From Thiosulfativibrio zosterae (GTDB lineage Bacteria > Pseudomonadota > Gammaproteobacteria > Thiomicrospirales > Thiomicrospiraceae): DNA of 64,000 nt. The translations under genes and the position numbers were made by a program. Positions 11,388 to 39,100 of this stretch are shown here, piece after piece (positions within the stretch are counted from its first letter, which is position 1; every line of letters begins with the position of its first letter). The DNA is taken from assembly GCF_011398155.1 (NCBI RefSeq), contig NZ_AP021888.1, forward strand, positions 124,001 to 188,000. The letters run 5' to 3'. Under the pieces are notes generated by a model. It saw only the letters and a program-made list of their open reading frames with translations, was not told where the DNA came from and did no database searches.

Positions 11388-11694
11388 GTTAAACCTCCTA
11401 AGGGGTTTGATAACTTAATGATTTACTTATTTATTATCTTAACAAATAACCAGTGGTTGCGTGCAATAAATTATTTTCAAAATAATTCTAAAATTGTTTT
11501 CTAAAGCTTTGAGTATTTTTAACTACATCTAGTGGGTTTTAATTGTAAGTCTTCAATATATGGTGGCGAGTATTTAAGTGTGTGTGAAACCTGTGAATAA
11601 ATCTGTATAGATGTACCTAGGTACACTATTCGCAGGCTTTTAATAGAGGTAAGCTGACTAGTAATATCGAAAAGTGCGCCTAGGAGCCTATATC
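11388..11694. promoter_or_regulatory. AT-rich divergent control region of the adhesin gene
   Basis: This 307-bp spacer separates the small Ser/Thr-rich gene (minus) from the adhesin (plus). I cannot assign a good -35/-10 pair. A TATAGA at 11606-11611 could be a -10 for the adhesin, and it directly abuts the 14-bp palindrome listed separately. Confidence 0.4.
11612..11625. promoter_or_regulatory. 14-bp palindrome TGTACCTAGGTACA, possible operator
   Basis: A perfect 14-bp inverted repeat 70 bases before the adhesin ATG, immediately downstream of a TATAGA -10-like element. Its position suits a repressor or activator site. No regulator is identified. Confidence 0.4.
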
Positions 11695-12150
11695 ATGTTG
11701 CCAAATTTACCCCATATCGCAATCGGAAAAGTTATTGAAGTCACAGGCTATGTACAAGCCATAGATGTTAATGGTGTGCCAAGAGTTTTAAGCGTTGGAG
11801 ATACCGTTTATTCTTTTGAAAGGATAGTGACTTCTGACAAGGGTTCGATTTTAATTGATATCGGTTTAGAAGGCGCTGACAACGTAACCCAGCTAGCACT
11901 TGGCAAAGATACCAGCATGATTCTGGATGATGATGTCATTCCAGGTTTGTCTTCCTTAGACAGCGCAACCCAAGATTCCGCAGTGGATGTAGCCTCCATA
12001 CAAGAAGCCGTTTTAAAAGGCCTTTTCGATAGCATGGAAAAAACAGAGGCGGGGGGAGAAAATGCAGAGTCTTCTTTGTCAACTGACCTAGATTTTATAC
12101 AAACCGGAGCGACTGGTGAAGTTACTGCGGGTTATGACACATCTGCAGAG
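11695..12150 (+). other. N-terminal retention module of the adhesin
   Basis: The first 150 residues (GKVIEVTGYVQAIDVNGVPR, VLSVGDTVYSFERIVT, then a helix with SIQEAVLKGL and EVTAGYDTS) match the module that plugs LapA-type adhesins in the TolC-like pore. The di-alanine LapG target is expected just after the IQxA helix. At that place the sequence is K-T-E-A-G-G (116-121), so one of the two alanines is Glu. Confidence 0.82.
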
Positions 12151-15100
12151 TTTGAATCGCGTTCTTATACAAGGGATTTCGAAGGCTTTAGATCTGCACA
12201 GTTTGCCATTTCACCTAATTCACCTTTTTTTGGTTTTCAGTTTCCCGGTACACCGGTAACCCCTTCACCAGTAACCCCTACACCAGTAACACCTACACCG
12301 GTAACACCTACGCCAGTAACACCTACACCGGTAACACCTACACCGGTAACACCTACACCGGTAACACCTACACCGGTAACACCTACACCGGTAACACCTA
12401 CGCCAGTAACACCTACGCCTCCGACTGTTGAAAACCCCGTCAATTTAGCGCGCTTTACAGATAATTTTGTAAACGGTGTTGAATATACAACCAGTTCAGG
12501 ATTGACCGGTTTAACAGGAGATTCTGGTGTTGCGGGTGAGTTCAAATTTAGAGATGGCGATACCATTACCTTCAAAGTGGGCGATGTTATTGTCGGTGTA
12601 TTTAGCGCAGATGTTGTTAAAGGGGATTTACTGTTCTTGCAAGATATTGCGGGTACTGAGCTTTCTGATAACAACTCCATGTATGTTGAAAACATGGCGA
12701 TTTTCCTACAAGCCATTGATAGTGATCTAAAAGATAGCACGCCTGACGATGGCATTTTGCAAACCAATAGTTTGGTGGATGTCGATTCTAGCTATGGCAC
12801 TAATATCAATATTACTCAAGAAATGCGTGATGCGTTTACAGGTTATTTAGACCCAACAACGGGTGAGCCATTAAATATTGCGAACTCTGATAAAGAAATG
12901 ATTTCTTTGGTGTTGGATAGTGTCAATATTGAATTTACACGTGAATCCGAGGGTGAAGTTGAAGTGGGTTCCGGCAACAGTGGTAATGTGTTCGAAAGCA
13001 TTGCTATGCAACATGTTGCAGATACCATTCAAGATTTGGCAGGTGATAGAACGCCCGCTGAAGCTGATGCCCGATTGGCTGATGAATTAGAAGTGCCAGG
13101 TGGTGTTGTTGAATATAACTTTCAAGAAATCCAAAGCATGGATGTTCCTCAAATCACGTTTGATGCCAGAGATTTGCTACAGGGTGCGGTAGGTCAGCAG
13201 GTATTTGATGGCAATTTAATCGTTAAAAATGTCACTTTGGCGGCAGGTTTTGAAGATATCGGCGAGTTAGTCAGTTTAGGTGATGACAAATACGCAATTA
13301 ATCTGCGTGATGATATTACGCCTTATGATTTGGAAGGCTTATCTTTAAATTATCGTGTACAAGACTGGACAGTTTACCGCGATGTCACTTCAACAACCCT
13401 AGATACTCATAAAGCCCACTTGTCTGCTGAAATTGAAAATGTGGTCGAAGACGCAGGCTATTCACAGTTTACGGTCAAAAGCACGTTAGCGTTTGATAGT
13501 GATCAACAGCTAACCGTTAAGTTTTCTCCGGAAACTGCTGGGTCAAACTTCGCAGAATACTCCGATGATTTTATGGTTCCGCTGGAATATTCAAACGATG
13601 GTGGTGTGACTTGGAATACCATGAATATCGTCGATACCTATACACGTGACGATTACGATAAACCGCTTCCTGTATTCAGTTTTACCCTTGCCGCCAACAC
13701 CACTGATGTTGTGATTCGTATCCCGATTTTTGATGACCCATACAACGAAGACCCTGCTGGCAGTATCGATCCGCTTACGGGTCAAGGCATGGAAGTCATT
13801 GATATGTTGGTTGAGGGTGATAATTTCTATGCTGAAAAACTACAACCTGGCATTATTGATAACGATCCAAGTTCTGATAAACCTGTTGTTGAAGTTGATT
13901 TTGCAGTAGTCAATGAGGCAGATGGTTTTGCAGTTATAACGTTTAGTCTGGTTGATTCAGATAAAAATCCAATTACATTCAATGAAGATATTGTTGTTGA
14001 TTATCAAACGGGTGATTTAAGCGCGGTTGCAGGACAAGATTATACCGCTTTGAGTGGTTCTATCACGATTCCAGCAGGTCAAGGATCTGTGCAGTTATCC
14101 ATTCCAATTATTGATGATAACTTGGTTGAAACCCTAGAGTTTTTAAAACTCAGCTTAACCTCTGTTTCAGACAATGCCGTTCTAGGGGACCCAGAAGCAT
14201 CAGTTCGTATTTACGACAACGACGGTATCAATATCTCTGGAGAAACAAACCCCGAAGGAAACAATGTTGTATTTACGGTTACCTTAAGTGAGGGGATTGA
14301 TTCGTCCGCAATACTAAAATTAAGCCCAACCAACTCTGGCGCAACAGCGACAAAAGATGTTGATTTCGACTCAAGCACTTTAAAAGCCTTCTATATTGAT
14401 GGCAATAACAATGAAGTCGTTCTAACAACCACGGCTGGTCAAGGTTTCTCTGTGCCTGATGGTGTTACGCAATTTTTTGTTACATATGAAAGTATTGATG
14501 ACAGCATAATTGAACTTGACGAAACTGTGCGTATGCAGGTTTTCGCTGAGCTAGCAGATGGTACTGATCGTTTAGCGATTGGTACGGCAACGATTACTAA
14601 TAATGATTTCCCAGAATTCAACATGGGCACAGACTTCGTAGTAGATGAAGCCGCAGGCACCATTAGCTTCACCGTCACCAAAACCGGCGACACCACCCAA
14701 GCCTCAACAGTCGACTTCACGACAGTCGACGGCACAGCGCTTGCCGGCACTGACTACACCGCCCAAAGTGGCACACTGAGTTTTGCCGCGGGAGAAACCA
14801 GCAAAACCATCACAGTTGCCATCACCAATGACGCGGTCTTTGAAGGTGCAGAAAACTTCAAAGTCCAAATCAGCAACCCAAGCAACGCCACCATCGGTGA
14901 CAACGACCAAGTCGCGACCATCAAAGACGACGGCAGTACAGGCATCACAGATGACGACCGTCCAGAATTCAACATGGGCACAGACTTCGTAGTAGATGAA
15001 GCCGCAGGCACCATTAGCTTCACCGTCACCAAAACCGGCGACACCACCCAAGCCTCAACAGTCGACTTCACGACAGTCGACGGCACAGCGCTTGCCGGCA

Positions 15101-18100
15101 CTGACTACACCGCCCAAAGTGGCACACTGAGTTTTGCCGCGGGAGAAACCAGCAAAACCATCACAGTTGCCATCACCAATGACGCGGTCTTTGAAGGTGC
15201 AGAAAACTTCAAAGTCCAAATCAGCAACCCAAGCAACGCCACCATCGGTGACAACGACCAAGTCGCGACCATCAAAGACGACGGCAGTACAGGCATCACA
15301 GATGACGACCGTCCAGAATTCAACATGGGCACAGACTTCGTAGTAGATGAAGCCGCAGGCACCATTAGCTTCACCGTCACCAAAACCGGCGACACCACCC
15401 AAGCCTCAACAGTCGACTTCACGACAGTCGACGGCACAGCGCTTGCCGGCACTGACTACACCGCCCAAAGTGGCACACTGAGTTTTGCCGCGGGAGAAAC
15501 CAGCAAAACCATCACAGTTGCCATCACCAATGACGCGGTCTTTGAAGGTGCAGAAAACTTCAAAGTCCAAATCAGCAACCCAAGCAACGCCACCATCGGT
15601 GACAACGACCAAGTCGCGACCATCAAAGACGACGGCAGTACAGGCATCACAGATGACGACCGTCCAGAATTCAACATGGGCACAGACTTCGTAGTAGATG
15701 AAGCCGCAGGCACCATTAGCTTCACCGTCACCAAAACCGGCGACACCACCCAAGCCTCAACAGTCGACTTCACGACAGTCGACGGCACAGCGCTTGCCGG
15801 CACTGACTACACCGCCCAAAGTGGCACACTGAGTTTTGCCGCGGGAGAAACCAGCAAAACCATCACAGTTGCCATCACCAATGACGCGGTCTTTGAAGGT
15901 GCAGAAAACTTCAAAGTCCAAATCAGCAACCCAAGCAACGCCACCATCGGTGACAACGACCAAGTCGCGACCATCAAAGACGACGGCAGTACAGGCATCA
16001 CAGATGACGACCGTCCAGAATTCAACATGGGCACAGACTTCGTAGTAGATGAAGCCGCAGGCACCATTAGCTTCACCGTCACCAAAACCGGCGACACCAC
16101 CCAAGCCTCAACAGTCGACTTCACGACAGTCGACGGCACAGCGCTTGCCGGCACTGACTACACCGCCCAAAGTGGCACACTGAGTTTTGCCGCGGGAGAA
16201 ACCAGCAAAACCATCACAGTTGCCATCACCAATGACGCGGTCTTTGAAGGTGCAGAAAACTTCAAAGTCCAAATCAGCAACCCAAGCAACGCCACCATCG
16301 GTGACAACGACCAAGTCGCGACCATCAAAGACGACGGCAGTACAGGCATCACAGATGACGACCGTCCAGAATTCAACATGGGCACAGACTTCGTAGTAGA
16401 TGAAGCCGCAGGCACCATTAGCTTCACCGTCACCAAAACCGGCGACACCACCCAAGCCTCAACAGTCGACTTCACGACAGTCGACGGCACAGCGCTTGCC
16501 GGCACTGACTACACCGCCCAAAGTGGCACACTGAGTTTTGCCGCGGGAGAAACCAGCAAAACCATCACAGTTGCCATCACCAATGACGCGGTCTTTGAAG
16601 GTGCAGAAAACTTCAAAGTCCAAATCAGCAACCCAAGCAACGCCACCATCGGTGACAACGACCAAGTCGCGACCATCAAAGACGACGGCAGTACAGGCAT
16701 CACAGATGACGACCGTCCAGAATTCAACATGGGCACAGACTTCGTAGTAGATGAAGCCGCAGGCACCATTAGCTTCACCGTCACCAAAACCGGCGACACC
16801 ACCCAAGCCTCAACAGTCGACTTCACGACAGTCGACGGCACAGCGCTTGCCGGCACTGACTACACCGCCCAAAGTGGCACACTGAGTTTTGCCGCGGGAG
16901 AAACCAGCAAAACCATCACAGTTGCCATCACCAATGACGCGGTCTTTGAAGGTGCAGAAAACTTCAAAGTCCAAATCAGCAACCCAAGCAACGCCACCAT
17001 CGGTGACAACGACCAAGTCGCGACCATCAAAGACGACGGCAGTACAGGCATCACAGATGACGACCGTCCAGAATTCAACATGGGCACAGACTTCGTAGTA
17101 GATGAAGCCGCAGGCACCATTAGCTTCACCGTCACCAAAACCGGCGACACCACCCAAGCCTCAACAGTCGACTTCACGACAGTCGACGGCACAGCGCTTG
17201 CCGGCACTGACTACACCGCCCAAAGTGGCACACTGAGTTTTGCCGCGGGAGAAACCAGCAAAACCATCACAGTTGCCATCACCAATGACGCGGTCTTTGA
17301 AGGTGCAGAAAACTTCAAAGTCCAAATCAGCAACCCAAGCAACGCCACCATCGGTGACAACGACCAAGTCGCGACCATCAAAGACGACGGCAGTACAGGC
17401 ATCACAGATGACGACCGTCCAGAATTCAACATGGGCACAGACTTCGTAGTAGATGAAGCCGCAGGCACCATTAGCTTCACCGTCACCAAAACCGGCGACA
17501 CCACCCAAGCCTCAACAGTCGACTTCACGACAGTCGACGGCACAGCGCTTGCCGGCACTGACTACACCGCCCAAAGTGGCACACTGAGTTTTGCCGCGGG
17601 AGAAACCAGCAAAACCATCACAGTTGCCATCACCAATGACGCGGTCTTTGAAGGTGCAGAAAACTTCAAAGTCCAAATCAGCAACCCAAGCAACGCCACC
17701 ATCGGTGACAACGACCAAGTCGCGACCATCAAAGACGACGGCAGTACAGGCATCACAGATGACGACCGTCCAGAATTCAACATGGGCACAGACTTCGTAG
17801 TAGATGAAGCCGCAGGCACCATTAGCTTCACCGTCACCAAAACCGGCGACACCACCCAAGCCTCAACAGTCGACTTCACGACAGTCGACGGCACAGCGCT
17901 TGCCGGCACTGACTACACCGCCCAAAGTGGCACACTGAGTTTTGCCGCGGGAGAAACCAGCAAAACCATCACAGTTGCCATCACCAATGACGCGGTCTTT
18001 GAAGGTGCAGAAAACTTCAAAGTCCAAATCAGCAACCCAAGCAACGCCACCATCGGTGACAACGACCAAGTCGCGACCATCAAAGACGACGGCAGTACAG

Positions 18101-21100
18101 GCATCACAGATGACGACCGTCCAGAATTCAACATGGGCACAGACTTCGTAGTAGATGAAGCCGCAGGCACCATTAGCTTCACCGTCACCAAAACCGGCGA
18201 CACCACCCAAGCCTCAACAGTCGACTTCACGACAGTCGACGGCACAGCGCTTGCCGGCACTGACTACACCGCCCAAAGTGGCACACTGAGTTTTGCCGCG
18301 GGAGAAACCAGCAAAACCATCACAGTTGCCATCACCAATGACGCGGTCTTTGAAGGTGCAGAAAACTTCAAAGTCCAAATCAGCAACCCAAGCAACGCCA
18401 CCATCGGTGACAACGACCAAGTCGCGACCATCAAAGACGACGGCAGTACAGGCATCACAGATGACGACCGTCCAGAATTCAACATGGGCACAGACTTCGT
18501 AGTAGATGAAGCCGCAGGCACCATTAGCTTCACCGTCACCAAAACCGGCGACACCACCCAAGCCTCAACAGTCGACTTCACGACAGTCGACGGCACAGCG
18601 CTTGCCGGCACTGACTACACCGCCCAAAGTGGCACACTGAGTTTTGCCGCGGGAGAAACCAGCAAAACCATCACAGTTGCCATCACCAATGACGCGGTCT
18701 TTGAAGGTGCAGAAAACTTCAAAGTCCAAATCAGCAACCCAAGCAACGCCACCATCGGTGACAACGACCAAGTCGCGACCATCAAAGACGACGGCAGTAC
18801 AGGCATCACAGATGACGACCGTCCAGAATTCAACATGGGCACAGACTTCGTAGTAGATGAAGCCGCAGGCACCATTAGCTTCACCGTCACCAAAACCGGC
18901 GACACCACCCAAGCCTCAACAGTCGACTTCACGACAGTCGACGGCACAGCGCTTGCCGGCACTGACTACACCGCCCAAAGTGGCACACTGAGTTTTGCCG
19001 CGGGAGAAACCAGCAAAACCATCACAGTTGCCATCACCAATGACGCGGTCTTTGAAGGTGCAGAAAACTTCAAAGTCCAAATCAGCAACCCAAGCAACGC
19101 CACCATCGGTGACAACGACCAAGTCGCGACCATCAAAGACGACGGCAGTACAGGCATCACAGATGACGACCGTCCAGAATTCAACATGGGCACAGACTTC
19201 GTAGTAGATGAAGCCGCAGGCACCATTAGCTTCACCGTCACCAAAACCGGCGACACCACCCAAGCCTCAACAGTCGACTTCACGACAGTCGACGGCACAG
19301 CGCTTGCCGGCACTGACTACACCGCCCAAAGTGGCACACTGAGTTTTGCCGCGGGAGAAACCAGCAAAACCATCACAGTTGCCATCACCAATGACGCGGT
19401 CTTTGAAGGTGCAGAAAACTTCAAAGTCCAAATCAGCAACCCAAGCAACGCCACCATCGGTGACAACGACCAAGTCGCGACCATCAAAGACGACGGCAGT
19501 ACAGGCATCACAGATGACGACCGTCCAGAATTCAACATGGGCACAGACTTCGTAGTAGATGAAGCCGCAGGCACCATTAGCTTCACCGTCACCAAAACCG
19601 GCGACACCACCCAAGCCTCAACAGTCGACTTCACGACAGTCGACGGCACAGCGCTTGCCGGCACTGACTACACCGCCCAAAGTGGCACACTGAGTTTTGC
19701 CGCGGGAGAAACCAGCAAAACCATCACAGTTGCCATCACCAATGACGCGGTCTTTGAAGGTGCAGAAAACTTCAAAGTCCAAATCAGCAACCCAAGCAAC
19801 GCCACCATCGGTGACAACGACCAAGTCGCGACCATCAAAGACGACGGCAGTACAGGCATCACAGATGACGACCGTCCAGAATTCAACATGGGCACAGACT
19901 TCGTAGTAGATGAAGCCGCAGGCACCATTAGCTTCACCGTCACCAAAACCGGCGACACCACCCAAGCCTCAACAGTCGACTTCACGACAGTCGACGGCAC
20001 AGCGCTTGCCGGCACTGACTACACCGCCCAAAGTGGCACACTGAGTTTTGCCGCGGGAGAAACCAGCAAAACCATCACAGTTGCCATCACCAATGACGCG
20101 GTCTTTGAAGGTGCAGAAAACTTCAAAGTCCAAATCAGCAACCCAAGCAACGCCACCATCGGTGACAACGACCAAGTCGCGACCATCAAAGACGACGGCA
20201 GTACAGGCATCACAGATGACGACCGTCCAGAATTCAACATGGGCACAGACTTCGTAGTAGATGAAGCCGCAGGCACCATTAGCTTCACCGTCACCAAAAC
20301 CGGCGACACCACCCAAGCCTCAACAGTCGACTTCACGACAGTCGACGGCACAGCGCTTGCCGGCACTGACTACACCGCCCAAAGTGGCACACTGAGTTTT
20401 GCCGCGGGAGAAACCAGCAAAACCATCACAGTTGCCATCACCAATGACGCGGTCTTTGAAGGTGCAGAAAACTTCAAAGTCCAAATCAGCAACCCAAGCA
20501 ACGCCACCATCGGTGACAACGACCAAGTCGCGACCATCAAAGACGACGGCAGTACAGGCATCACAGATGACGACCGTCCAGAATTCAACATGGGCACAGA
20601 CTTCGTAGTAGATGAAGCCGCAGGCACCATTAGCTTCACCGTCACCAAAACCGGCGACACCACCCAAGCCTCAACAGTCGACTTCACGACAGTCGACGGC
20701 ACAGCGCTTGCCGGCACTGACTACACCGCCCAAAGTGGCACACTGAGTTTTGCCGCGGGAGAAACCAGCAAAACCATCACAGTTGCCATCACCAATGACG
20801 CGGTCTTTGAAGGTGCAGAAAACTTCAAAGTCCAAATCAGCAACCCAAGCAACGCCACCATCGGTGACAACGACCAAGTCGCGACCATCAAAGACGACGG
20901 CAGTACAGGCATCACAGATGACGACCGTCCAGAATTCAACATGGGCACAGACTTCGTAGTAGATGAAGCCGCAGGCACCATTAGCTTCACCGTCACCAAA
21001 ACCGGCGACACCACCCAAGCCTCAACAGTCGACTTCACGACAGTCGACGGCACAGCGCTTGCCGGCACTGACTACACCGCCCAAAGTGGCACACTGAGTT

Positions 21101-24100
21101 TTGCCGCGGGAGAAACCAGCAAAACCATCACAGTTGCCATCACCAATGACGCGGTCTTTGAAGGTGCAGAAAACTTCAAAGTCCAAATCAGCAACCCAAG
21201 CAACGCCACCATCGGTGACAACGACCAAGTCGCGACCATCAAAGACGACGGCAGTACAGGCATCACAGATGACGACCGTCCAGAATTCAACATGGGCACA
21301 GACTTCGTAGTAGATGAAGCCGCAGGCACCATTAGCTTCACCGTCACCAAAACCGGCGACACCACCCAAGCCTCAACAGTCGACTTCACGACAGTCGACG
21401 GCACAGCGCTTGCCGGCACTGACTACACCGCCCAAAGTGGCACACTGAGTTTTGCCGCGGGAGAAACCAGCAAAACCATCACAGTTGCCATCACCAATGA
21501 CGCGGTCTTTGAAGGTGCAGAAAACTTCAAAGTCCAAATCAGCAACCCAAGCAACGCCACCATCGGTGACAACGACCAAGTCGCGACCATCAAAGACGAC
21601 GGCAGTACAGGCATCACAGATGACGACCGTCCAGAATTCAACATGGGCACAGACTTCGTAGTAGATGAAGCCGCAGGCACCATTAGCTTCACCGTCACCA
21701 AAACCGGCGACACCACCCAAGCCTCAACAGTCGACTTCACGACAGTCGACGGCACAGCGCTTGCCGGCACTGACTACACCGCCCAAAGTGGCACACTGAG
21801 TTTTGCCGCGGGAGAAACCAGCAAAACCATCACAGTTGCCATCACCAATGACGCGGTCTTTGAAGGTGCAGAAAACTTCAAAGTCCAAATCAGCAACCCA
21901 AGCAACGCCACCATCGGTGACAACGACCAAGTCGCGACCATCAAAGACGACGGCAGTACAGGCATCACAGATGACGACCGTCCAGAATTCAACATGGGCA
22001 CAGACTTCGTAGTAGATGAAGCCGCAGGCACCATTAGCTTCACCGTCACCAAAACCGGCGACACCACCCAAGCCTCAACAGTCGACTTCACGACAGTCGA
22101 CGGCACAGCGCTTGCCGGCACTGACTACACCGCCCAAAGTGGCACACTGAGTTTTGCCGCGGGAGAAACCAGCAAAACCATCACAGTTGCCATCACCAAT
22201 GACGCGGTCTTTGAAGGTGCAGAAAACTTCAAAGTCCAAATCAGCAACCCAAGCAACGCCACCATCGGTGACAACGACCAAGTCGCGACCATCAAAGACG
22301 ACGGCAGTACAGGCATCACAGATGACGACCGTCCAGAATTCAACATGGGCACAGACTTCGTAGTAGATGAAGCCGCAGGCACCATTAGCTTCACCGTCAC
22401 CAAAACCGGCGACACCACCCAAGCCTCAACAGTCGACTTCACGACAGTCGACGGCACAGCGCTTGCCGGCACTGACTACACCGCCCAAAGTGGCACACTG
22501 AGTTTTGCCGCGGGAGAAACCAGCAAAACCATCACAGTTGCCATCACCAATGACGCGGTCTTTGAAGGTGCAGAAAACTTCAAAGTCCAAATCAGCAACC
22601 CAAGCAACGCCACCATCGGTGACAACGACCAAGTCGCGACCATCAAAGACGACGGCAGTACAGGCATCACAGATGACGACCGTCCAGAATTCAACATGGG
22701 CACAGACTTCGTAGTAGATGAAGCCGCAGGCACCATTAGCTTCACCGTCACCAAAACCGGCGACACCACCCAAGCCTCAACAGTCGACTTCACGACAGTC
22801 GACGGCACAGCGCTTGCCGGCACTGACTACACCGCCCAAAGTGGCACACTGAGTTTTGCCGCGGGAGAAACCAGCAAAACCATCACAGTTGCCATCACCA
22901 ATGACGCGGTCTTTGAAGGTGCAGAAAACTTCAAAGTCCAAATCAGCAACCCAAGCAACGCCACCATCGGTGACAACGACCAAGTCGCGACCATCAAAGA
23001 CGACGGCAGTACAGGCATCACAGATGACGACCGTCCAGAATTCAACATGGGCACAGACTTCGTAGTAGATGAAGCCGCAGGCACCATTAGCTTCACCGTC
23101 ACCAAAACCGGCGACACCACCCAAGCCTCAACAGTCGACTTCACGACAGTCGACGGCACAGCGCTTGCCGGCACTGACTACACCGCCCAAAGTGGCACAC
23201 TGAGTTTTGCCGCGGGAGAAACCAGCAAAACCATCACAGTTGCCATCACCAATGACGCGGTCTTTGAAGGTGCAGAAAACTTCAAAGTCCAAATCAGCAA
23301 CCCAAGCAACGCCACCATCGGTGACAACGACCAAGTCGCGACCATCAAAGACGACGGCAGTACAGGCATCACAGATGACGACCGTCCAGAATTCAACATG
23401 GGCACAGACTTCGTAGTAGATGAAGCCGCAGGCACCATTAGCTTCACCGTCACCAAAACCGGCGACACCACCCAAGCCTCAACAGTCGACTTCACGACAG
23501 TCGACGGCACAGCGCTTGCCGGCACTGACTACACCGCCCAAAGTGGCACACTGAGTTTTGCCGCGGGAGAAACCAGCAAAACCATCACAGTTGCCATCAC
23601 CAATGACGCGGTCTTTGAAGGTGCAGAAAACTTCAAAGTCCAAATCAGCAACCCAAGCAACGCCACCATCGGTGACAACGACCAAGTCGCGACCATCAAA
23701 GACGACGGCAGTACAGGCATCACAGATGACGACCGTCCAGAATTCAACATGGGCACAGACTTCGTAGTAGATGAAGCCGCAGGCACCATTAGCTTCACCG
23801 TCACCAAAACCGGCGACACCACCCAAGCCTCAACAGTCGACTTCACGACAGTCGACGGCACAGCGCTTGCCGGCACTGACTACACCGCCCAAAGTGGCAC
23901 ACTGAGTTTTGCCGCGGGAGAAACCAGCAAAACCATCACAGTTGCCATCACCAATGACGCGGTCTTTGAAGGTGCAGAAAACTTCAAAGTCCAAATCAGC
24001 AACCCAAGCAACGCCACCATCGGTGACAACGACCAAGTCGCGACCATCAAAGACGACGGCAGTACAGGCATCACAGATGACGACCGTCCAGAATTCAACA

Positions 24101-27100
24101 TGGGCACAGACTTCGTAGTAGATGAAGCCGCAGGCACCATTAGCTTCACCGTCACCAAAACCGGCGACACCACCCAAGCCTCAACAGTCGACTTCACGAC
24201 AGTCGACGGCACAGCGCTTGCCGGCACTGACTACACCGCCCAAAGTGGCACACTGAGTTTTGCCGCGGGAGAAACCAGCAAAACCATCACAGTTGCCATC
24301 ACCAATGACGCGGTCTTTGAAGGTGCAGAAAACTTCAAAGTCCAAATCAGCAACCCAAGCAACGCCACCATCGGTGACAACGACCAAGTCGCGACCATCA
24401 AAGACGACGGCAGTACAGGCATCACAGATGACGACCGTCCAGAATTCAACATGGGCACAGACTTCGTAGTAGATGAAGCCGCAGGCACCATTAGCTTCAC
24501 CGTCACCAAAACCGGCGACACCACCCAAGCCTCAACAGTCGACTTCACGACAGTCGACGGCACAGCGCTTGCCGGCACTGACTACACCGCCCAAAGTGGC
24601 ACACTGAGTTTTGCCGCGGGAGAAACCAGCAAAACCATCACAGTTGCCATCACCAATGACGCGGTCTTTGAAGGTGCAGAAAACTTCAAAGTCCAAATCA
24701 GCAACCCAAGCAACGCCACCATCGGTGACAACGACCAAGTCGCGACCATCAAAGACGACGGCAGTACAGGCATCACAGATGACGACCGTCCAGAATTCAA
24801 CATGGGCACAGACTTCGTAGTAGATGAAGCCGCAGGCACCATTAGCTTCACCGTCACCAAAACCGGCGACACCACCCAAGCCTCAACAGTCGACTTCACG
24901 ACAGTCGACGGCACAGCGCTTGCCGGCACTGACTACACCGCCCAAAGTGGCACACTGAGTTTTGCCGCGGGAGAAACCAGCAAAACCATCACAGTTGCCA
25001 TCACCAATGACGCGGTCTTTGAAGGTGCAGAAAACTTCAAAGTCCAAATCAGCAACCCAAGCAACGCCACCATCGGTGACAACGACCAAGTCGCGACCAT
25101 CAAAGACGACGGCAGTACAGGCATCACAGATGACGACCGTCCAGAATTCAACATGGGCACAGACTTCGTAGTAGATGAAGCCGCAGGCACCATTAGCTTC
25201 ACCGTCACCAAAACCGGCGACACCACCCAAGCCTCAACAGTCGACTTCACGACAGTCGACGGCACAGCGCTTGCCGGCACTGACTACACCGCCCAAAGTG
25301 GCACACTGAGTTTTGCCGCGGGAGAAACCAGCAAAACCATCACAGTTGCCATCACCAATGACGCGGTCTTTGAAGGTGCAGAAAACTTCAAAGTCCAAAT
25401 CAGCAACCCAAGCAACGCCACCATCGGTGACAACGACCAAGTCGCGACCATCAAAGACGACGGCAGTACAGGCATCACAGATGACGACCGTCCAGAATTC
25501 AACATGGGCACAGACTTCGTAGTAGATGAAGCCGCAGGCACCATTAGCTTCACCGTCACCAAAACCGGCGACACCACCCAAGCCTCAACAGTCGACTTCA
25601 CGACAGTCGACGGCACAGCGCTTGCCGGCACTGACTACACCGCCCAAAGTGGCACACTGAGTTTTGCCGCGGGAGAAACCAGCAAAACCATCACAGTTGC
25701 CATCACCAATGACGCGGTCTTTGAAGGTGCAGAAAACTTCAAAGTCCAAATCAGCAACCCAAGCAACGCCACCATCGGTGACAACGACCAAGTCGCGACC
25801 ATCAAAGACGACGGCAGTACAGGCATCACAGATGACGACCGTCCAGAATTCAACATGGGCACAGACTTCGTAGTAGATGAAGCCGCAGGCACCATTAGCT
25901 TCACCGTCACCAAAACCGGCGACACCACCCAAGCCTCAACAGTCGACTTCACGACAGTCGACGGCACAGCGCTTGCCGGCACTGACTACACCGCCCAAAG
26001 TGGCACACTGAGTTTTGCCGCGGGAGAAACCAGCAAAACCATCACAGTTGCCATCACCAATGACGCGGTCTTTGAAGGTGCAGAAAACTTCAAAGTCCAA
26101 ATCAGCAACCCAAGCAACGCCACCATCGGTGACAACGACCAAGTCGCGACCATCAAAGACGACGGCAGTACAGGCATCACAGATGACGACCGTCCAGAAT
26201 TCAACATGGGCACAGACTTCGTAGTAGATGAAGCCGCAGGCACCATTAGCTTCACCGTCACCAAAACCGGCGACACCACCCAAGCCTCAACAGTCGACTT
26301 CACGACAGTCGACGGCACAGCGCTTGCCGGCACTGACTACACCGCCCAAAGTGGCACACTGAGTTTTGCCGCGGGAGAAACCAGCAAAACCATCACAGTT
26401 GCCATCACCAATGACGCGGTCTTTGAAGGTGCAGAAAACTTCAAAGTCCAAATCAGCAACCCAAGCAACGCCACCATCGGTGACAACGACCAAGTCGCGA
26501 CCATCAAAGACGACGGCAGTACAGGCATCACAGATGACGACCGTCCAGAATTCAACATGGGCACAGACTTCGTAGTAGATGAAGCCGCAGGCACCATTAG
26601 CTTCACCGTCACCAAAACCGGCGACACCACCCAAGCCTCAACAGTCGACTTCACGACAGTCGACGGCACAGCGCTTGCCGGCACTGACTACACCGCCCAA
26701 AGTGGCACACTGAGTTTTGCCGCGGGAGAAACCAGCAAAACCATCACAGTTGCCATCACCAATGACGCGGTCTTTGAAGGTGCAGAAAACTTCAAAGTCC
26801 AAATCAGCAACCCAAGCAACGCCACCATCGGTGACAACGACCAAGTCGCGACCATCAAAGACGACGGCAGTACAGGCATCACAGATGACGACCGTCCAGA
26901 ATTCAACATGGGCACAGACTTCGTAGTAGATGAAGCCGCAGGCACCATTAGCTTCACCGTCACCAAAACCGGCGACACCACCCAAGCCTCAACAGTCGAC
27001 TTCACGACAGTCGACGGCACAGCGCTTGCCGGCACTGACTACACCGCCCAAAGTGGCACACTGAGTTTTGCCGCGGGAGAAACCAGCAAAACCATCACAG

Positions 27101-30100
27101 TTGCCATCACCAATGACGCGGTCTTTGAAGGTGCAGAAAACTTCAAAGTCCAAATCAGCAACCCAAGCAACGCCACCATCGGTGACAACGACCAAGTCGC
27201 GACCATCAAAGACGACGGCAGTACAGGCATCACAGATGACGACCGTCCAGAATTCAACATGGGCACAGACTTCGTAGTAGATGAAGCCGCAGGCACCATT
27301 AGCTTCACCGTCACCAAAACCGGCGACACCACCCAAGCCTCAACAGTCGACTTCACGACAGTCGACGGCACAGCGCTTGCCGGCACTGACTACACCGCCC
27401 AAAGTGGCACACTGAGTTTTGCCGCGGGAGAAACCAGCAAAACCATCACAGTTGCCATCACCAATGACGCGGTCTTTGAAGGTGCAGAAAACTTCAAAGT
27501 CCAAATCAGCAACCCAAGCAACGCCACCATCGGTGACAACGACCAAGTCGCGACCATCAAAGACGACGGCAGTACAGGCATCACAGATGACGACCGTCCA
27601 GAATTCAACATGGGCACAGACTTCGTAGTAGATGAAGCCGCAGGCACCATTAGCTTCACCGTCACCAAAACCGGCGACACCACCCAAGCCTCAACAGTCG
27701 ACTTCACGACAGTCGACGGCACAGCGCTTGCCGGCACTGACTACACCGCCCAAAGTGGCACACTGAGTTTTGCCGCGGGAGAAACCAGCAAAACCATCAC
27801 AGTTGCCATCACCAATGACGCGGTCTTTGAAGGTGCAGAAAACTTCAAAGTCCAAATCAGCAACCCAAGCAACGCCACCATCGGTGACAACGACCAAGTC
27901 GCGACCATCAAAGACGACGGCAGTACAGGCATCACAGATGACGACCGTCCAGAATTCAACATGGGCACAGACTTCGTAGTAGATGAAGCCGCAGGCACCA
28001 TTAGCTTCACCGTCACCAAAACCGGCGACACCACCCAAGCCTCAACAGTCGACTTCACGACAGTCGACGGCACAGCGCTTGCCGGCACTGACTACACCGC
28101 CCAAAGTGGCACACTGAGTTTTGCCGCGGGAGAAACCAGCAAAACCATCACAGTTGCCATCACCAATGACGCGGTCTTTGAAGGTGCAGAAAACTTCAAA
28201 GTCCAAATCAGCAACCCAAGCAACGCCACCATCGGTGACAACGACCAAGTCGCGACCATCAAAGACGACGGCAGTACAGGCATCACAGATGACGACCGTC
28301 CAGAATTCAACATGGGCACAGACTTCGTAGTAGATGAAGCCGCAGGCACCATTAGCTTCACCGTCACCAAAACCGGCGACACCACCCAAGCCTCAACAGT
28401 CGACTTCACGACAGTCGACGGCACAGCGCTTGCCGGCACTGACTACACCGCCCAAAGTGGCACACTGAGTTTTGCCGCGGGAGAAACCAGCAAAACCATC
28501 ACAGTTGCCATCACCAATGACGCGGTCTTTGAAGGTGCAGAAAACTTCAAAGTCCAAATCAGCAACCCAAGCAACGCCACCATCGGTGACAACGACCAAG
28601 TCGCGACCATCAAAGACGACGGCAGTACAGGCATCACAGATGACGACCGTCCAGAATTCAACATGGGCACAGACTTCGTAGTAGATGAAGCCGCAGGCAC
28701 CATTAGCTTCACCGTCACCAAAACCGGCGACACCACCCAAGCCTCAACAGTCGACTTCACGACAGTCGACGGCACAGCGCTTGCCGGCACTGACTACACC
28801 GCCCAAAGTGGCACACTGAGTTTTGCCGCGGGAGAAACCAGCAAAACCATCACAGTTGCCATCACCAATGACGCGGTCTTTGAAGGTGCAGAAAACTTCA
28901 AAGTCCAAATCAGCAACCCAAGCAACGCCACCATCGGTGACAACGACCAAGTCGCGACCATCAAAGACGACGGCAGTACAGGCATCACAGATGACGACCG
29001 TCCAGAATTCAACATGGGCACAGACTTCGTAGTAGATGAAGCCGCAGGCACCATTAGCTTCACCGTCACCAAAACCGGCGACACCACCCAAGCCTCAACA
29101 GTCGACTTCACGACAGTCGACGGCACAGCGCTTGCCGGCACTGACTACACCGCCCAAAGTGGCACACTGAGTTTTGCCGCGGGAGAAACCAGCAAAACCA
29201 TCACAGTTGCCATCACCAATGACGCGGTCTTTGAAGGTGCAGAAAACTTCAAAGTCCAAATCAGCAACCCAAGCAACGCCACCATCGGTGACAACGACCA
29301 AGTCGCGACCATCAAAGACGACGGCAGTACAGGCATCACAGATGACGACCGTCCAGAATTCAACATGGGCACAGACTTCGTAGTAGATGAAGCCGCAGGC
29401 ACCATTAGCTTCACCGTCACCAAAACCGGCGACACCACCCAAGCCTCAACAGTCGACTTCACGACAGTCGACGGCACAGCGCTTGCCGGCACTGACTACA
29501 CCGCCCAAAGTGGCACACTGAGTTTTGCCGCGGGAGAAACCAGCAAAACCATCACAGTTGCCATCACCAATGACGCGGTCTTTGAAGGTGCAGAAAACTT
29601 CAAAGTCCAAATCAGCAACCCAAGCAACGCCACCATCGGTGACAACGACCAAGTCGCGACCATCAAAGACGACGGCAGTACAGGCATCACAGATGACGAC
29701 CGTCCAGAATTCAACATGGGCACAGACTTCGTAGTAGATGAAGCCGCAGGCACCATTAGCTTCACCGTCACCAAAACCGGCGACACCACCCAAGCCTCAA
29801 CAGTCGACTTCACGACAGTCGACGGCACAGCGCTTGCCGGCACTGACTACACCGCCCAAAGTGGCACACTGAGTTTTGCCGCGGGAGAAACCAGCAAAAC
29901 CATCACAGTTGCCATCACCAATGACGCGGTCTTTGAAGGTGCAGAAAACTTCAAAGTCCAAATCAGCAACCCAAGCAACGCCACCATCGGTGACAACGAC
30001 CAAGTCGCGACCATCAAAGACGACGGCAGTACAGGCATCACAGATGACGACCGTCCAGAATTCAACATGGGCACAGACTTCGTAGTAGATGAAGCCGCAG

Positions 30101-33100
30101 GCACCATTAGCTTCACCGTCACCAAAACCGGCGACACCACCCAAGCCTCAACAGTCGACTTCACGACAGTCGACGGCACAGCGCTTGCCGGCACTGACTA
30201 CACCGCCCAAAGTGGCACACTGAGTTTTGCCGCGGGAGAAACCAGCAAAACCATCACAGTTGCCATCACCAATGACGCGGTCTTTGAAGGTGCAGAAAAC
30301 TTCAAAGTCCAAATCAGCAACCCAAGCAACGCCACCATCGGTGACAACGACCAAGTCGCGACCATCAAAGACGACGGCAGTACAGGCATCACAGATGACG
30401 ACCGTCCAGAATTCAACATGGGCACAGACTTCGTAGTAGATGAAGCCGCAGGCACCATTAGCTTCACCGTCACCAAAACCGGCGACACCACCCAAGCCTC
30501 AACAGTCGACTTCACGACAGTCGACGGCACAGCGCTTGCCGGCACTGACTACACCGCCCAAAGTGGCACACTGAGTTTTGCCGCGGGAGAAACCAGCAAA
30601 ACCATCACAGTTGCCATCACCAATGACGCGGTCTTTGAAGGTGCAGAAAACTTCAAAGTCCAAATCAGCAACCCAAGCAACGCCACCATCGGTGACAACG
30701 ACCAAGTCGCGACCATCAAAGACGACGGCAGTACAGGCATCACAGATGACGACCGTCCAGAATTCAACATGGGCACAGACTTCGTAGTAGATGAAGCCGC
30801 AGGCACCATTAGCTTCACCGTCACCAAAACCGGCGACACCACCCAAGCCTCAACAGTCGACTTCACGACAGTCGACGGCACAGCGCTTGCCGGCACTGAC
30901 TACACCGCCCAAAGTGGCACACTGAGTTTTGCCGCGGGAGAAACCAGCAAAACCATCACAGTTGCCATCACCAATGACGCGGTCTTTGAAGGTGCAGAAA
31001 ACTTCAAAGTCCAAATCAGCAACCCAAGCAACGCCACCATCGGTGACAACGACCAAGTCGCGACCATCAAAGACGACGGCAGTATCTCCGACGACGACAC
31101 AGTCAGCGTCACCACGGTGGGAGCAGCGACAGAAACCGAAGGCAGCGACTTAACGCACACAGTCACCATGAGTGGCGTAGCGGACAGCGCAAAAACCTAC
31201 AGCTTCAATGTTACCGATATCACCGCGACGGCCGGCAGTGACTACACAGCCACCCCAAGCTTCAGCAATGGCGTAACTTACGATGCACTCAGCGGTCAGA
31301 TTACAGTCCCAGCAAATGTTAGTAGCTTCACAGTGACCTTCCCAGGGCTTGCGGATGCGCTTGATGAAAGTGATGAAACCTACAGCCTCACGATCGGAGG
31401 AGTCAGCGGCACAGGAACGATTACGGATGACGACAATGCACCTGTTGCGAATGATGATCCTTCAACGGCACCTTATTATGTTGAAGTTGGTAATGTTTCA
31501 AGCTCTATTTATGACTATACATGGACAAATACAGGGACGGCAAATTGGAATAACACCGACAGTAATGATTCAACAGTTAAAGTTACGGCGTTTGACAGCC
31601 AAGGCAATGCGGTTTCAGTGTCAACAACTAGTAATGTTGTTTTAGGAACAGGTTCGTCAAGCACTGTTGTTAGCAATGGTAATGAAAGTTTTGAGTTAGG
31701 AGTAGCGGGTTCTCCTAGAGGAGATGATGATTGGCCAGCAGAGCAAATTGAATATCATGCTGGAACGCAAACTTCCGAAGCTCTAGTTTTCCAATTTAGC
31801 GGTTATATGAATGAGGCCACTGTTAAAGTCAGTCACTTAATTGGAAACGAAGGTGGTGGTGAAAAAGGACAATGGATTGCTATGTTAGATGGCACGGTTG
31901 TTGCCACAGAGATATTTGCTTCTGACACAGTTGTTATAAACACGGGTAATTTTGTGTTTAACGAATTGCGTTTTGAGGCGCTTCCATACACGCTTCAAAC
32001 CGGAACAGGCGATAGTGATGCTTCTGATTATTTTATCCAGTCTATTCAAGGCAGTGGTCCTGCAAATGCAAACAGTGATTATTCGACGACAGAAGATGCA
32101 ACTTTAGTTATTGACACTGAATCATTTGGAGTTCTAAAAAATGATTCTGATGCAGATAACGATGCTGTTAATGTTATTAAAGTAAACGGTCAAGTGGTGA
32201 ATGACGGTGCAACGGTAACTTTAGCAAGTGGTGCTTTGCTAACGATTCATTCAAATGGGACATTTGATTACAACCCAAATGGACAGTTCAATAGCTTAGC
32301 TGCAGGCCAAGTGGATCAAGATAGTTTTACTTATCAAATACAAGATATTCATGGTAATACCCTTAATACAGCAAATGGAGAAGGCCCTAATAGTGATCTG
32401 GACAGTGTAGCGACGGCAACGATTACCATTATAGGTAAAGGCGAACCTTATCAACCCGCAACACCTAATATTGCACCCGTAGCGGTAGATGACAGCATCA
32501 ACGCCACCGAAGACAGCGTGTATACCTCAACGATAGACTTAGATGCAAATGACACAGACCTAGATGGCGACAACCTAAGTGTCGTGGCAGGCACCTTCAC
32601 CACCACTCAAGGCGGCACCTTAGTGCTAGCAGCCGATGGCAGCTACACTTACACACCCGCGCTCAACTTCAATGGGGTAGACACAGTTGACTACACAGTC
32701 ACAGATGGATCTCTAACAGATGTAGGCACCTTAACCATCAATGTAGGCGCCGTGAACGACGCACCCGTAGCGGTGGATGACAGCATCAACGCCACCGAAG
32801 ATAGCGTGTATACCTCAACGATAGACTTAGATGCAAATGACACAGACCTAGATGGCGACAACCTAAGTGTCGTGGCAGGCACCTTCACCACCACTCAAGG
32901 CGGCACCTTAGTGCTAGCAGCCGATGGCAGCTACACTTACACACCCGCGAGCAACTTCAATGGGGTAGACACAGTTGACTACACAGTCACAGATGGATCT
33001 CTAACAGATGTAGGCACCTTGAGCATCACTGTAGGCGCGGTGAACGACGCACCCGTAGCGGTAGATGACAGCATCAACGCCACCGAAGACAGCGTGTATA

Positions 33101-36100
33101 CCTCAACGATAGACTTAGATGCAAATGACACAGACCTAGATGGCGACAACCTAAGTGTCGTGGCAGGCACCTTCACCACCACTCAAGGCGGCACCTTAGT
33201 GCTAGCAGCCGATGGCAGCTACACTTACACACCCGCGCTCAACTTCAATGGGGTAGACACAGTTGACTACACAGTCACAGATGGATCTCTAACAGATGTA
33301 GGCACCTTAACCATCAATGTAGGCGCCGTGAACGACGCACCCGTAGCGGTGGATGACAGCATCAACGCCACCGAAGATAGCGTGTATACCTCAACGATAG
33401 ACTTAGATGCAAATGACACAGACCTAGATGGCGACAACCTAAGTGTCGTGGCAGGCACCTTCACCACCACTCAAGGCGGCACCTTAGTGCTAGCAGCCGA
33501 TGGCAGCTACACTTACACACCCGCGAGCAACTTCAATGGGGTAGACACAGTTGACTACACAGTCACAGATGGATCTCTAACAGATGTAGGCACCTTGAGC
33601 ATCACTGTAGGCGCGGTGAACGACGCACCCGTAGCGGTAGATGACAGCATCAACGCCACCGAAGACAGCGTGTATACCTCAACGATAGACTTAGATGCAA
33701 ATGACACAGACCTAGATGGCGACAACCTAAGTGTCGTGGCAGGCACCTTCACCACCACTCAAGGCGGCACCTTAGTGCTAGCAGCCGATGGCAGCTACAC
33801 TTACACACCCGCGAGCAACTTCAATGGGGTAGACACAGTTGACTACACAGTCACAGATGGATCTCTAACAGATGTAGGCACCTTGAGCATCACTGTAGGC
33901 GCGGTGAACGACGCACCCGTAGCGGTAGATGACAGCATCAACGCCACCGAAGACAGCGTGTATACCTCAACGATAGACTTAGATGCAAATGACACAGACC
34001 TAGATGGCGACAACCTAAGTGTCGTGGCAGGCACCTTCACCACCACTCAAGGCGGCACCTTAGTGCTAGCAGCCGATGGCAGCTACACTTACACACCCGC
34101 GAGCAACTTCAATGGGGTAGACACAGTTGACTACACAGTCACAGATGGATCTCTAACAGATGTAGGCACCTTGAGCATCACTGTAGGCGCGGTGAACGAC
34201 GCACCCGTAGCGGTAGATGACAGCATCAACGCCACCGAAGACAGCGTGTATACCTCAACGATAGACTTAGATGCAAATGACACAGACCTAGATGGCGACA
34301 ACCTAAGTGTCGTGGCAGGCACCTTCACCACAACTCAAGGCGGCACCTTAGTGCTAGCAGCCGATGGCAGCTACACTTACACACCCGCGCTCAACTTCAA
34401 TGGGGTAGACACAGTTGACTACACAGTCACAGATGGATCTCTAACAGATGTAGGCACCTTAACCATCAATGTAGGCGCCGTGAACGACGCACCCGTAGCG
34501 GTGGATGACAGCATCAACGCCACCGAAGATAGCGTGTATACCTCAACGATAGACTTAGATGCAAATGACACAGACCTAGATGGCGACAACCTAAGTGTCG
34601 TGGCAGGCACCTTCACCACAACTCAAGGCGGCACCTTAGTGCTAGCAGCCGATGGCAGCTACACTTACACACCCGCGCTCAACTTCAATGGGGTAGACAC
34701 AGTTGACTACACAGTCACAGATGGATCTCTAACAGATGTAGGCACCTTAACCATCAATGTAGGCGCCGTGAACGACGCACCCGTAGCGGTGGATGACAGC
34801 ATCAACGCCACCGAAGATAGCGTGTATACCTCAACGATAGACTTAGATGCAAATGACACAGACCTAGATGGCGACAACCTAAGTGTCGTGGCAGGCACCT
34901 TCACCACAACTCAAGGCGGCACCTTAGTGCTAGCAGCCGATGGCAGCTACACTTACACACCCGCGCTCAACTTCAATGGGGTAGACACAGTTGACTACAC
35001 AGTCACAGATGGATCTCTAACAGATGTAGGCACCTTAACCATCAATGTAGGCGCCGTGAACGACGCACCAGAATCCGCTGCTGGTTTGGTTGTTACTTGC
35101 GAAGATATTTCTTATACCTTTAGATTGGCTGATTTTGGTTTTAGCGATGTTGATGGAGATTCTTTAGCATCGATTCGCATCGAAAATCTACCAATTGATG
35201 GTGAATTATCGCTTAATGGTGAGCCTGTCATTGCAAATCAGTCAGTGTCTCAAACTGAAATCGCGAATGGCCTTTTGGTCTTTACACCGGATGCTAATGA
35301 ATCAGGTATAGATGCTTATCAAGTAGTGGGTACAGGAGATCAACATCAAGATTATGCAACCTTTCAATTTAGTGTTTCTGATGGAGCTGAATGGAGTTCA
35401 GCAACTTTAATGACGATTGATGTAAGCCCTGTTGTTGATAGTCCATTAATATCTGTTGTGGGCTCTAAATCAACTGAGATTACGATTGATGTAAGTAATG
35501 TCACTACTTCACAATCAGGCTTTAGCGTGACTGCCTATAATGCCGATGGCTCGCAAGGAACAGTTAGTTTAGTAACAGGAACTACACATGATGGCTTTGG
35601 CGTATCAGGTGTTGCAAGTGGCGCTGATGTTGAGTTGGGTGTAAACACTGCAGGTAATAGCGAAATGTTAGTGGTTCATTTTGATTATCCTGTTAGTTCA
35701 GCTGCAGTCGCATTTGCCTGGCAACATCCTGGAGAAGAGGCTCAATACGATTTTTATTTAAATGGTGTTCAAGTTGGGTCGGGCTCAAATTATGGCATTA
35801 CAGATACTGTAGATCCAATACTAAACCTAACCGCCAATGGTTCTTCATTTGATGAAATTAGATTTAAAGCGCCAGATTACGAAGATGATTATTTAATTAA
35901 TCAAATTTCATTTACGCAGGTCATTGAGAATAACAACTCTTTACAGGTTGATGCAGGTAGCACCGTTGATTTGTCTTTAACCGCAAACTTACAGGATAAC
36001 GATGGATCGGAAACCATCAGCAGTCTTGTTATTGGTAATATTCCTAATGGTGTGACGATTACTGATGGAAGTCACAGCTTTACGGCAAGCGAAGGTTCTA

Positions 36101-39100
36101 ATTCAGTGGATGTATTAAACTGGACAATCGATTCGATTGAATTAACTGTTCCGGCTAGTTATGAAGGAACTATTAATCTTGATATTCAAGCAATGGCGCA
36201 AGAGTCTTTGGCTGGTCTAGCTGAAGGTGAAAATTGTCCATTAACAACAGTAGCCCATACATCTTTTGTTTTAGATGTTAATGCCAATCTTAATGCTGCG
36301 ATAATTACCATTGGTGATGTTCAAGTAGATGAAGATGCACTTGTTGCTACTTATCAGATTTCTGTTGATCATGCTCCAAAAAATCAACCTTTAGTGGTTA
36401 CCTTGAATCAGTTAGATGCTTCGGGTGATCCAATTGTTATTGAGATTCCAGTGGGTGAAACCAGCGCTTCTAAACAAGTGAGTATTGCGTTAACTGTAAA
36501 TTCTGATGAAGACCTTAATGATATTGGCATTACTTCTGCAGCAGGAGGTAACTATTTATCGATTGATAGCTCTGACACAGCTAAATTTGTTGTTAATGCT
36601 GTTGCTGACATACCGACAGTTTCTATTGATATTGGCGAAGCTCAGTATATTAATGGTACAACTCAAACAACCTTAGCTGAGAAAACAATTTCTTTGACTG
36701 TTAATGTAACGCTAGGAGATGAGTATGGTGATGACAATATTTCAGGTACTAATGGCTATGAATATATAGAAACTTCTGAACAGGTTCTAGACTTTGGTGC
36801 AGAGTATGCCGGACAAACAGTTGTGCTTGATTTATCAGGAAATATTAAAGGGGATTGGAATCAAGGCGAAAATGTATTGGACGACTACTGGAAAGTGTCG
36901 GCTAATGATCAAGAATTGGCAACCTACAAATATGGTTCAGCAAATAATAATGATGTTTCGCAAAACTTCAATTATCAGCATACAGTAACGCTTGATAACT
37001 CTGGAAAAGTAGTTTTAAACATTGAAGCCGCCACAACTTCTAAATCTGAAACGGTCACTATTAATGGCATTACAGGACTGGTCAATGAAGTTACCGTGAC
37101 TAACTCTTCTGAAGAAGATGAGCGTTTAGAATATCCAGTAGTTATTTCTGCTGCGTTAAATGATTCTGATGGTAGTGAAACACTCACAGTTACCATAAAA
37201 AATGTTCCGCAAGGTGCTACTTTTGATATAGGTAGTGACTTAGGAAACGGTGTTTGGTCAATTCCTGTGAGTGGTTCAAGTTTAAATGAGTCTTTAAGCT
37301 TAAAAGTACCAATAAGTGTTGCGGAGAATTTATCGGCCTTAAACCTAGAAATTTCTGCTACATCAACTGAAAGCAGAGATAACGCTGATGGAACAAACTT
37401 TGTTACTGTAACCGCTAATGATTCAGCGACCACTCCTGTTCTTGACCTAAAACCAGAAGGTGAAGATGAATCACAAACATTAACTTTTGAAAATATTACT
37501 TCGAATCTTACATTTATTGTTGATGTATCAAGCAGCATGAGTAACGAGGATTTATCGTTAACCGAAAATGCCATTGAAAAAATCATCAGTCAATATGACG
37601 GATTAGGATCAGTCAATATAAATATTGTGCAGTTCTGGGGTAATGGAGCAAGCCAAACAAGCTGGATTAATAATGTCAGTAATTATGATGCTGGTGGTAG
37701 TTTGTATACCGATAAATCTGGTACAGATCCTGAACAAGGGTTGCGTCTAGTCGTGGATGCTTACTCTGGGAATGTACCTGAAGCAGACCAGGATATCGTC
37801 TTCTATTTTGGAGACGGAGATCCTTATGATGCTTATAAAACTGACTTTAAGTCTTATCAAACAACATGGCAGAATTTTGCTAATAATACGGTTGATATGG
37901 TTAAAGCCTATGGTATTAATGTTAACAGTTTAGACATATTAAATCAGATTGTTTCTTCTAACGAAGAGCCTGTTTACGTCAGTGATGTAAGTGATTTAGA
38001 TGATGCGGTTGAAAATATCGCTGAAACAGTTTTAACAGGGAACCTGCTAGATAACATTAGCGGTGGAGATCCTCAAATTCATATTCAGTCTATTACGGTT
38101 GATGACACTAGTTATGATGCTTCTAGCTTCCCAGAAAATGGCTTAGCAATAGGTGGTCAAGGAACCTTGTTGGTTAATTTTGTGACGGGTGAATATAACT
38201 ATATTGCCAATAGCAATGAATTTTTAAGCGATGTTAGTAAAGTCTTTTCTGTTAGTGCTAAAGATGCTGATGGAGACACTACCAGTTTTGAAGTAACCAT
38301 CAATGTAGATGTTGATAATACAGCAACCGTGCCTAACCTAACGGTAAAAACAGGAACTCCAGAGTTAGTCTCTACTTTTACAGAACAGGATACTTTCCAC
38401 GATACAAATGATTTTGAGTTAAAAGCTAATAAGCTTGCAGAAAAAACCTATGACTTAAAAGGGGATGCGACAAGTTTTACAATCAGAATAGAAGATTACA
38501 AAGCGAGTCAAGACGGTGGTAGTGTTGAATTGTATAAAGATGGAAACTTAGTTGAAACGGTTTCTCTAGATTCTTTAACGAACAATAACAATGATAACCA
38601 TGCAAGAAGTTATAGCTATACAGGTGACCAATCATTTGATCAAGTGAAAATATCAATTGATGACAGCTCTGGAACTAGTTTCAAGATAAAAGATTTTAAA
38701 GCAACAATCTTAACAGGTGAAACTGAATCAAATTATGAATATGTTATCGACATAGACGCATCAGTAAATGATAGCAGTGAAACGATTTCTTCTATAAGCA
38801 TTGATGGGCTGCCCAATAATACATCTTTAACTAATTCAGCTGGAGATGAAATTAGTATCTCAGGTGGTACTGCAACATTAACGGTTGAACAGTTGGTCGG
38901 TTTGAAGTTAATCAGCGCCACAGAATTAGTAAATGACCCCAATGATTCTATCCATATTACGGTGACAGCAACTTCTACTGAAACAAATAGTGGTGATACG
39001 GCGGTTCGAACCGCTACTTTGATTGACGGTGTTATCGAAGGTCTTATCTATGTTTCAAGTTCAGGAGATATGGGTAAAACTGATGCTTTGGGCCGGTTTA

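Follow-up and report, generated by a model that had tools for sequence, protein, structure and literature searches.

Background

Bacterial adhesins with stalks of tandem, DNA-identical domains are a known kind. In region II of MpAFP from Marinomonas primoryensis, a unit of 104 residues is repeated in ~120 DNA-identical copies (PMC4083281), and in the Periscope Proteins tandem, highly identical folded domains form a surface stalk, for which homologous recombination has been proposed as the cause of length change (PMC8201768, PMC9704523). The locus described here resembles MpAFP in that it encodes a giant surface adhesin of a Gram-negative bacterium with a stalk of DNA-identical, Ca2+-dependent beta-sandwich domains; it differs in that the MpAFP unit is Ig-like, occurs in more copies and belongs to an adhesin of the RTX class, whereas the unit found here is a Calx-beta domain and the motif GGxGxD/N, characteristic of RTX proteins, occurs nowhere in the 9,540 residues of the protein. 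With the Periscope Proteins it shares folded domains repeated in tandem with very high identity of their DNA; in their case, however, the concept includes variation in length from isolate to isolate, and the well-known members are Gram-positive proteins or inverse autotransporters.

Two further systems are similar in other respects. FrhA of Vibrio cholerae is a large adhesin that combines Calx-beta with cadherin domains and is controlled by LapD and LapG; it carries a PAAG cleavage motif, unlike the TEAGG reported below, and the part of the published account considered here describes no uniform Calx-beta array (PMC6890996). The aciniform spidroin genes provide an example of intragenic concerted evolution, with long repeats ~99% identical to each other, although they encode a eukaryotic structural protein and are reported to have only a slight codon skew (PMC3933166). 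A non-exhaustive search of the literature returned nothing on this adhesin in Thiomicrorhabdus and no direct precedent for a change of codon usage in adhesin arrays that have been homogenised. It is this codon signature that the present array adds to what is known from MpAFP region II and the Periscope Proteins.

Results and discussion

The adhesin gene and its parts

The window analysed is a stretch of 64,000 nucleotides from the genome of Thiosulfativibrio zosterae, which belongs to a family of sulfur oxidisers. The following features of it are relevant to this work, all on the forward strand:

11695..40317, +, gene of the giant LapA-like adhesin, 9,540 aa, ~991 kDa and pI ~4 (open reading frame; mass and pI computed)
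11728..12120, +, N-terminal LapA-type retention module, below the NCBI cut-off (NF033682)
12043..12057, +, TEAGG at the LapG cleavage position (from N-terminal sequences of relatives)
12249..12416, +, 15-bp repeat in 11 copies, TPVTP linker (TRF, translation)
14611..31084, +, 351-bp repeat in 46.93 copies, Calx-beta domains, one distinct unit (TRF, self-comparison)
32473..35069, +, second array, 288-bp repeat in 9 copies, Big_9/cadherin-like (tandem-95), five distinct units, mosaic (TRF, profiles)
37510..37818, +, weak von Willebrand A-like domain, below the Pfam cut-off (VWA_2, E 0.0012)
40285..40314, +, C-terminal motif ...DDNKYDYTDQ (similar C-termini in family adhesins)
40393..41796, +, protein kinase-like gene with Sel1 repeats, a conserved neighbour of the adhesin (Pfam, synteny)

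The adhesin reading frame is free of stops over 9,547 codons if counted from the GTG at 11674, or over 9,540 from the ATG at 11695. The retention module is followed by the TPVTP linker, by Calx-beta domains that have diverged (22-33% identity to the 351-bp unit) and by the uniform 351-bp array; distal to the latter lie one further diverged domain, the nine 288-bp units, the weak VWA match and the C-terminus, which is acidic. The window contains no Rfam matches. The NF033682 profile aligns to the N-terminus with 38.3 and 44.2 bits (E ~1e-9 to 3.5e-11), which is below the NCBI cut-off of 50, and the adhesin is the sole credible retention-module protein in the genome. A variant of the C-terminal motif, DDxNIDYQND, is common to adhesins of the family that have unrelated stalks and mostly lack RTX motifs (such C-termini were found in L047, L049, L051, L052, L056, L059, L065, L066, L069, L075 and L077). 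Since its C-terminus resembles those of other family adhesins, truncation of the gene is improbable, and the shared motif is a possible candidate for the type I secretion signal. We also observed a domain of undefined type (FLQDL...VENMA.FLQ.LD) near both ends of the adhesin (~12379-13047 and ~38944-39636, 33% identical to each other), as well as in a smaller lipoprotein-like protein encoded elsewhere (G000:C1:368930-369445).

The genes that mark a LapA-type adhesin system (LapD, LapG and LapB/C/E) are present in the genome: a lap-type operon located 2 Mb from the adhesin encodes OEP, an LPP20-like lipoprotein, OmpA, LapG, LapD, LapB and LapC. By the most likely route, the Lap type I secretion system would export the adhesin, the N-terminal module would hold it in the outer membrane, and LapD together with LapG would control its release. 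In most relatives with a complete N-terminus the LapG site reads TAAG, while the di-alanine is absent at the aligned position of the adhesin, which reads TEAGG. In Vibrio, replacement of the di-alanine by di-arginine blocks cleavage (PMC6890996); because of this effect, release of the present adhesin may be altered or lost, or else the specificity of LapG may have changed. Ca2+ bound at the domains would stiffen the stalk to a length of ~0.2 micrometre, assuming 4-5 nm per domain, and the stalk would then present the 288-bp-array, VWA-like and C-terminal parts; the adhesin would presumably bind a ligand.

The 351-bp array

An earlier note had proposed, from the letters of the window, that the gene contains 47 DNA-identical tandem copies of a Calx-beta unit with an exact 351-bp period (46 full and one shortened, with no frame change), encoding more than 5,400 residues of the same domain. 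All of this stands. TRF reports a period of 351, 46.9 copies, 100% matches and 0% indels between 14611 and 31084, and comparison of the window with itself at a lag of 351 yields a single unbroken run of 16,123 identical positions. The array is 16,474 bases long (46 units and 328 of the 351 bases of the 47th), starts in frame, and encodes 5,491 residues, i.e. 58% of the protein; all 47 units represent one distinct sequence, with zero mismatches, indels or frame changes among them. At lags other than multiples of 351 the match is only ~38% at best, which excludes chance. When the whole genome (a single contig of 2,645,427 bases) was searched with the unit, it was found 47 times, always in this array. 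That the units are identical is more secure than their count of 47, which rests on the single-contig assembly.

The assignment to Calx-beta was likewise borne out. The unit matches PF03160 with 189.2 bits (Pfam cut-off 27), a pair of adjacent units aligns with the Calx-beta tandem of the Na+/Ca2+ exchanger (3us9, E 3.9e-22), and the AlphaFold2 model of two units, made with 19 relatives, has a mean pLDDT of 93 and a pTM of 0.75. Single CBD1 chains are superimposable on this model with an rmsd of ~1.0 A and a TM-score (normalised by target length) of 0.84-0.92; how the two domains are placed relative to each other is predicted with less certainty than their fold.

The locus in relatives

The same locus can be recognised in other genomes of the family by its flanks, with BatD/VWA and thioredoxin genes upstream, and the kinase-Sel1 and phosphoribosyltransferase genes downstream. 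In many of them the adhesin is followed directly by the kinase-Sel1 gene (L047-L052, L056, L057, L059, L063, L065 and L066-L079), the named ones belonging to Hydrogenovibrio, Thiomicrorhabdus and Thiomicrospira; a functional link between the two genes is plausible. The adhesin reading frame beside the kinase gene ranges from 936-1,080 aa where a long array is missing (L066, L075) to the 9,540 aa reported here. The giant adhesins of the family are probably under-reported, given that 9 of the 14 named loci start inside the adhesin gene.

Many arrays of the family thus occupy one locus, as judged by the flanking genes, yet they consist of different units, and several are fully uniform. Only one distinct unit was found in L051 (17 copies of 318 bp), L052 (18 of 306 bp) and L063 (24 of 267 bp), and identity is high across long stretches in L046, L047, L048, L050, L059, L061 and L062. 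The position and the ends of the adhesin are thus conserved, while its stalk modules are exchanged for others and amplified anew. The arrays of L048, L050 and L059 carry frame breaks, which could be sequencing errors or real on/off variation.

The statement of the earlier note that normal adhesin arrays drift between copies holds outside the family and has to be corrected within it, where uniform arrays are not rare. Calx-beta matches are present in 29 of 140 genomes of the class. In the Calx-beta arrays sampled from other families, adjacent copies are mostly 52-66% identical at the DNA level; L112, for instance, has 41 Calx-beta domains with a mean identity of 54%, and the exception is L124, in which one adjacent pair is 95% identical. 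As a separate observation, three Calx-beta matches of equal score in G191:C1:900867-917666 (partly covered by L119) are exactly 8,226 bases apart, a spacing that suggests tandemly duplicated large genes.

Homogenisation of the arrays

We propose that the gene encodes a giant LapA-like surface adhesin, the stalk of which is made of 47 Calx-beta domains kept identical by repeated recombination between the units, and we assign this reading a probability of about 0.8. Unequal crossing-over, gene conversion, or both would maintain the identity, and the number of copies may change within the species, as the earlier note thought likely for cells or strains. Recent or continuing homogenisation had been suggested in the earlier note, and it is now well supported by two kinds of evidence. 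First, the 288-bp array that follows in this gene retains nine variable sites, at which both the parental and both recombinant combinations are present, and 14 of the 36 pairs of sites fail the four-gamete test; failures of this kind were also found in the arrays of L046, L061 and L062. Second, L050 and L051, which belong to the same genus, possess a homologous 318-bp unit that is nearly uniform within each species (identical in all 17 copies of L051) and only ~83% identical between them, in 17.0 copies in L051 vs at least 26.7 in L050, where the array reaches the contig edge. Uniformity within species combined with difference between species is the pattern of concerted evolution. With such a history the 351-bp array would represent a clean bacterial case of intragenic concerted evolution.

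Bacterial mutation rates are ordinarily ~1e-10 to 1e-9 per base per generation. At such rates 16.5 kb would gain a difference in roughly 1e5-1e6 generations, so that the last complete sweep of the array would be recent on this scale, which is to be taken as an order of magnitude.

The 351-bp array itself contains no variant site and hence no direct trace of exchange, and one very recent amplification would leave it looking the same. It could have been generated in a single rolling-circle-like event or in a burst of unequal crossing-over, with no homogenisation going on since. We consider this scenario unlikely, although it deserves more attention than the other explanations of the identity: the mosaics in the 288-bp array and in the arrays of three relatives require exchange between units, uniform or near-uniform arrays recur across many species of the family, and the codon shift described below needs a long evolution in the form of an array, unless it was imported together with the unit.

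Much less probable is an artefact of assembly, in which the real array would be shorter, longer or more varied, and its identity or the number of copies would have been created by the consensus. Repeats of this type do break assemblies, as illustrated by the nine named loci that start within the adhesin frame and perhaps by the frame breaks in the arrays of three relatives, if those are sequencing errors. Nonetheless, the genome forms a single contig, the 16.5 kb contain no frame error, arrays of equal uniformity are found in independent genomes of the family, and assembly usually collapses such arrays rather than expands them.

The idea that selection at the nucleotide level, for codon choice or RNA structure, holds the units identical with no exchange between them can be practically dismissed in spite of the extreme codon use of the array, as the non-preferred codons of the unit (two GAT beside 12 GAC, one ACG and one ACT) recur at identical positions throughout the array, a regularity that a preference for certain codons cannot explain (an argument made previously for silk genes, PMC3933166), and the folding of two units as RNA is ordinary among versions with shuffled identical codons (z -0.49).

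Codon choice in homogenised arrays

The composition of the 351-bp array departs strongly from that of the gene outside both arrays, with GC of 54% vs 40% and a coding-strand AT skew of +0.37 vs +0.01. Relative to the rest of the gene, C-ending codons make up 0.82 vs 0.35 of the two-fold pyrimidine codons, T is found at 0.07 vs 0.31 of the four-fold sites, and A ends 1.00 vs 0.78 of the codons for K, Q and E. The 288-bp array is shifted in the same direction (C-ending 0.64), and the step falls sharply at array borders. The shift towards C and away from T with respect to the rest of the gene was found in all 12 homogenised arrays examined (Wilcoxon p 0.0005), and in these arrays C-ending codons are chosen more often the higher the copy number (rho 0.69, p 0.013), whereas the remainder of the same genes shows no such relation (rho 0.06). 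A sustained shift is absent from five family adhesins that lack homogenised arrays, in which single blocks of 200 codons reach 0.5-0.6, and diverged Calx-beta arrays outside the family are mostly devoid of it.

With anticodons taken from the genome (Ala-UGC, Ile-GAU, Ser-GGA and Ser-CGA were assumed and Arg-CCG was left out), Watson-Crick-matched codons account for 83% of the 351-bp unit. The share is 74% for EF-Tu and 48% for ribosomal proteins, and outside the arrays the adhesin gene itself reaches 44-49%. It is tempting, if only as a tentative proposal and one that may well prove wrong, to consider that concerted evolution multiplies selection at synonymous sites by the number of copies and thereby tunes the arrays, though not the rest of the same gene, to the tRNAs, in favour of C- and A-ending, non-wobble codons. 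If units exchange, one spreading synonymous change would act at up to 47 sites per protein, and such multiplication could amplify weak selection for wobble-free codons into the shift observed. This hypothesis was formed on the same data, after several measures had been tried, and the 12 arrays are partly related and all from within the family. If it is correct, arrays of this type could serve to quantify a selection on synonymous codons that usually escapes notice, and the adhesin locus of the family would constitute a natural experiment for the study of weak selection on bacterial codons.

Three other causes of the shift were considered and rejected. Simple GC-biased gene conversion does not agree with the two-fold purine codons, which shift to A rather than G in 10 of the 12 arrays. 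Selection for weak mRNA structure is contradicted by the predicted folding of two units, somewhat stronger than that of versions encoding the same protein with other codons (z -1.56). Adaptation to the codon usage of ribosomal proteins would not result in an array CAI of 0.43, which is below that of the rest of the gene.

Alternatively, ready-made units could have been imported from foreign genomes, so that the codon shift would reflect their donors rather than selection on the array. Units do differ between species, and short stretches of the 351-bp unit match DNA of Calothrix, Nostoc and Azospirillum at 72-77%. We nevertheless find this origin doubtful, since a mixture of donors should not cause 12 of 12 arrays, mostly of unrelated units, to shift alike and in accordance with copy number, and no close donor was found at the DNA level among 72,556 plasmid records or 56 relatives.

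Other groups were also sampled for the codon shift. A search outside the family with a 212-aa query from L051 gave matches in 2 of 187 genomes. Four giant repeat proteins encoded on plasmids were compared as well: three of them have mostly diverged repeats, and a codon shift as large as that in the family is seen in none; a partly repeated plasmid-borne gene of Priestia gave values of 0.29 vs 0.21.
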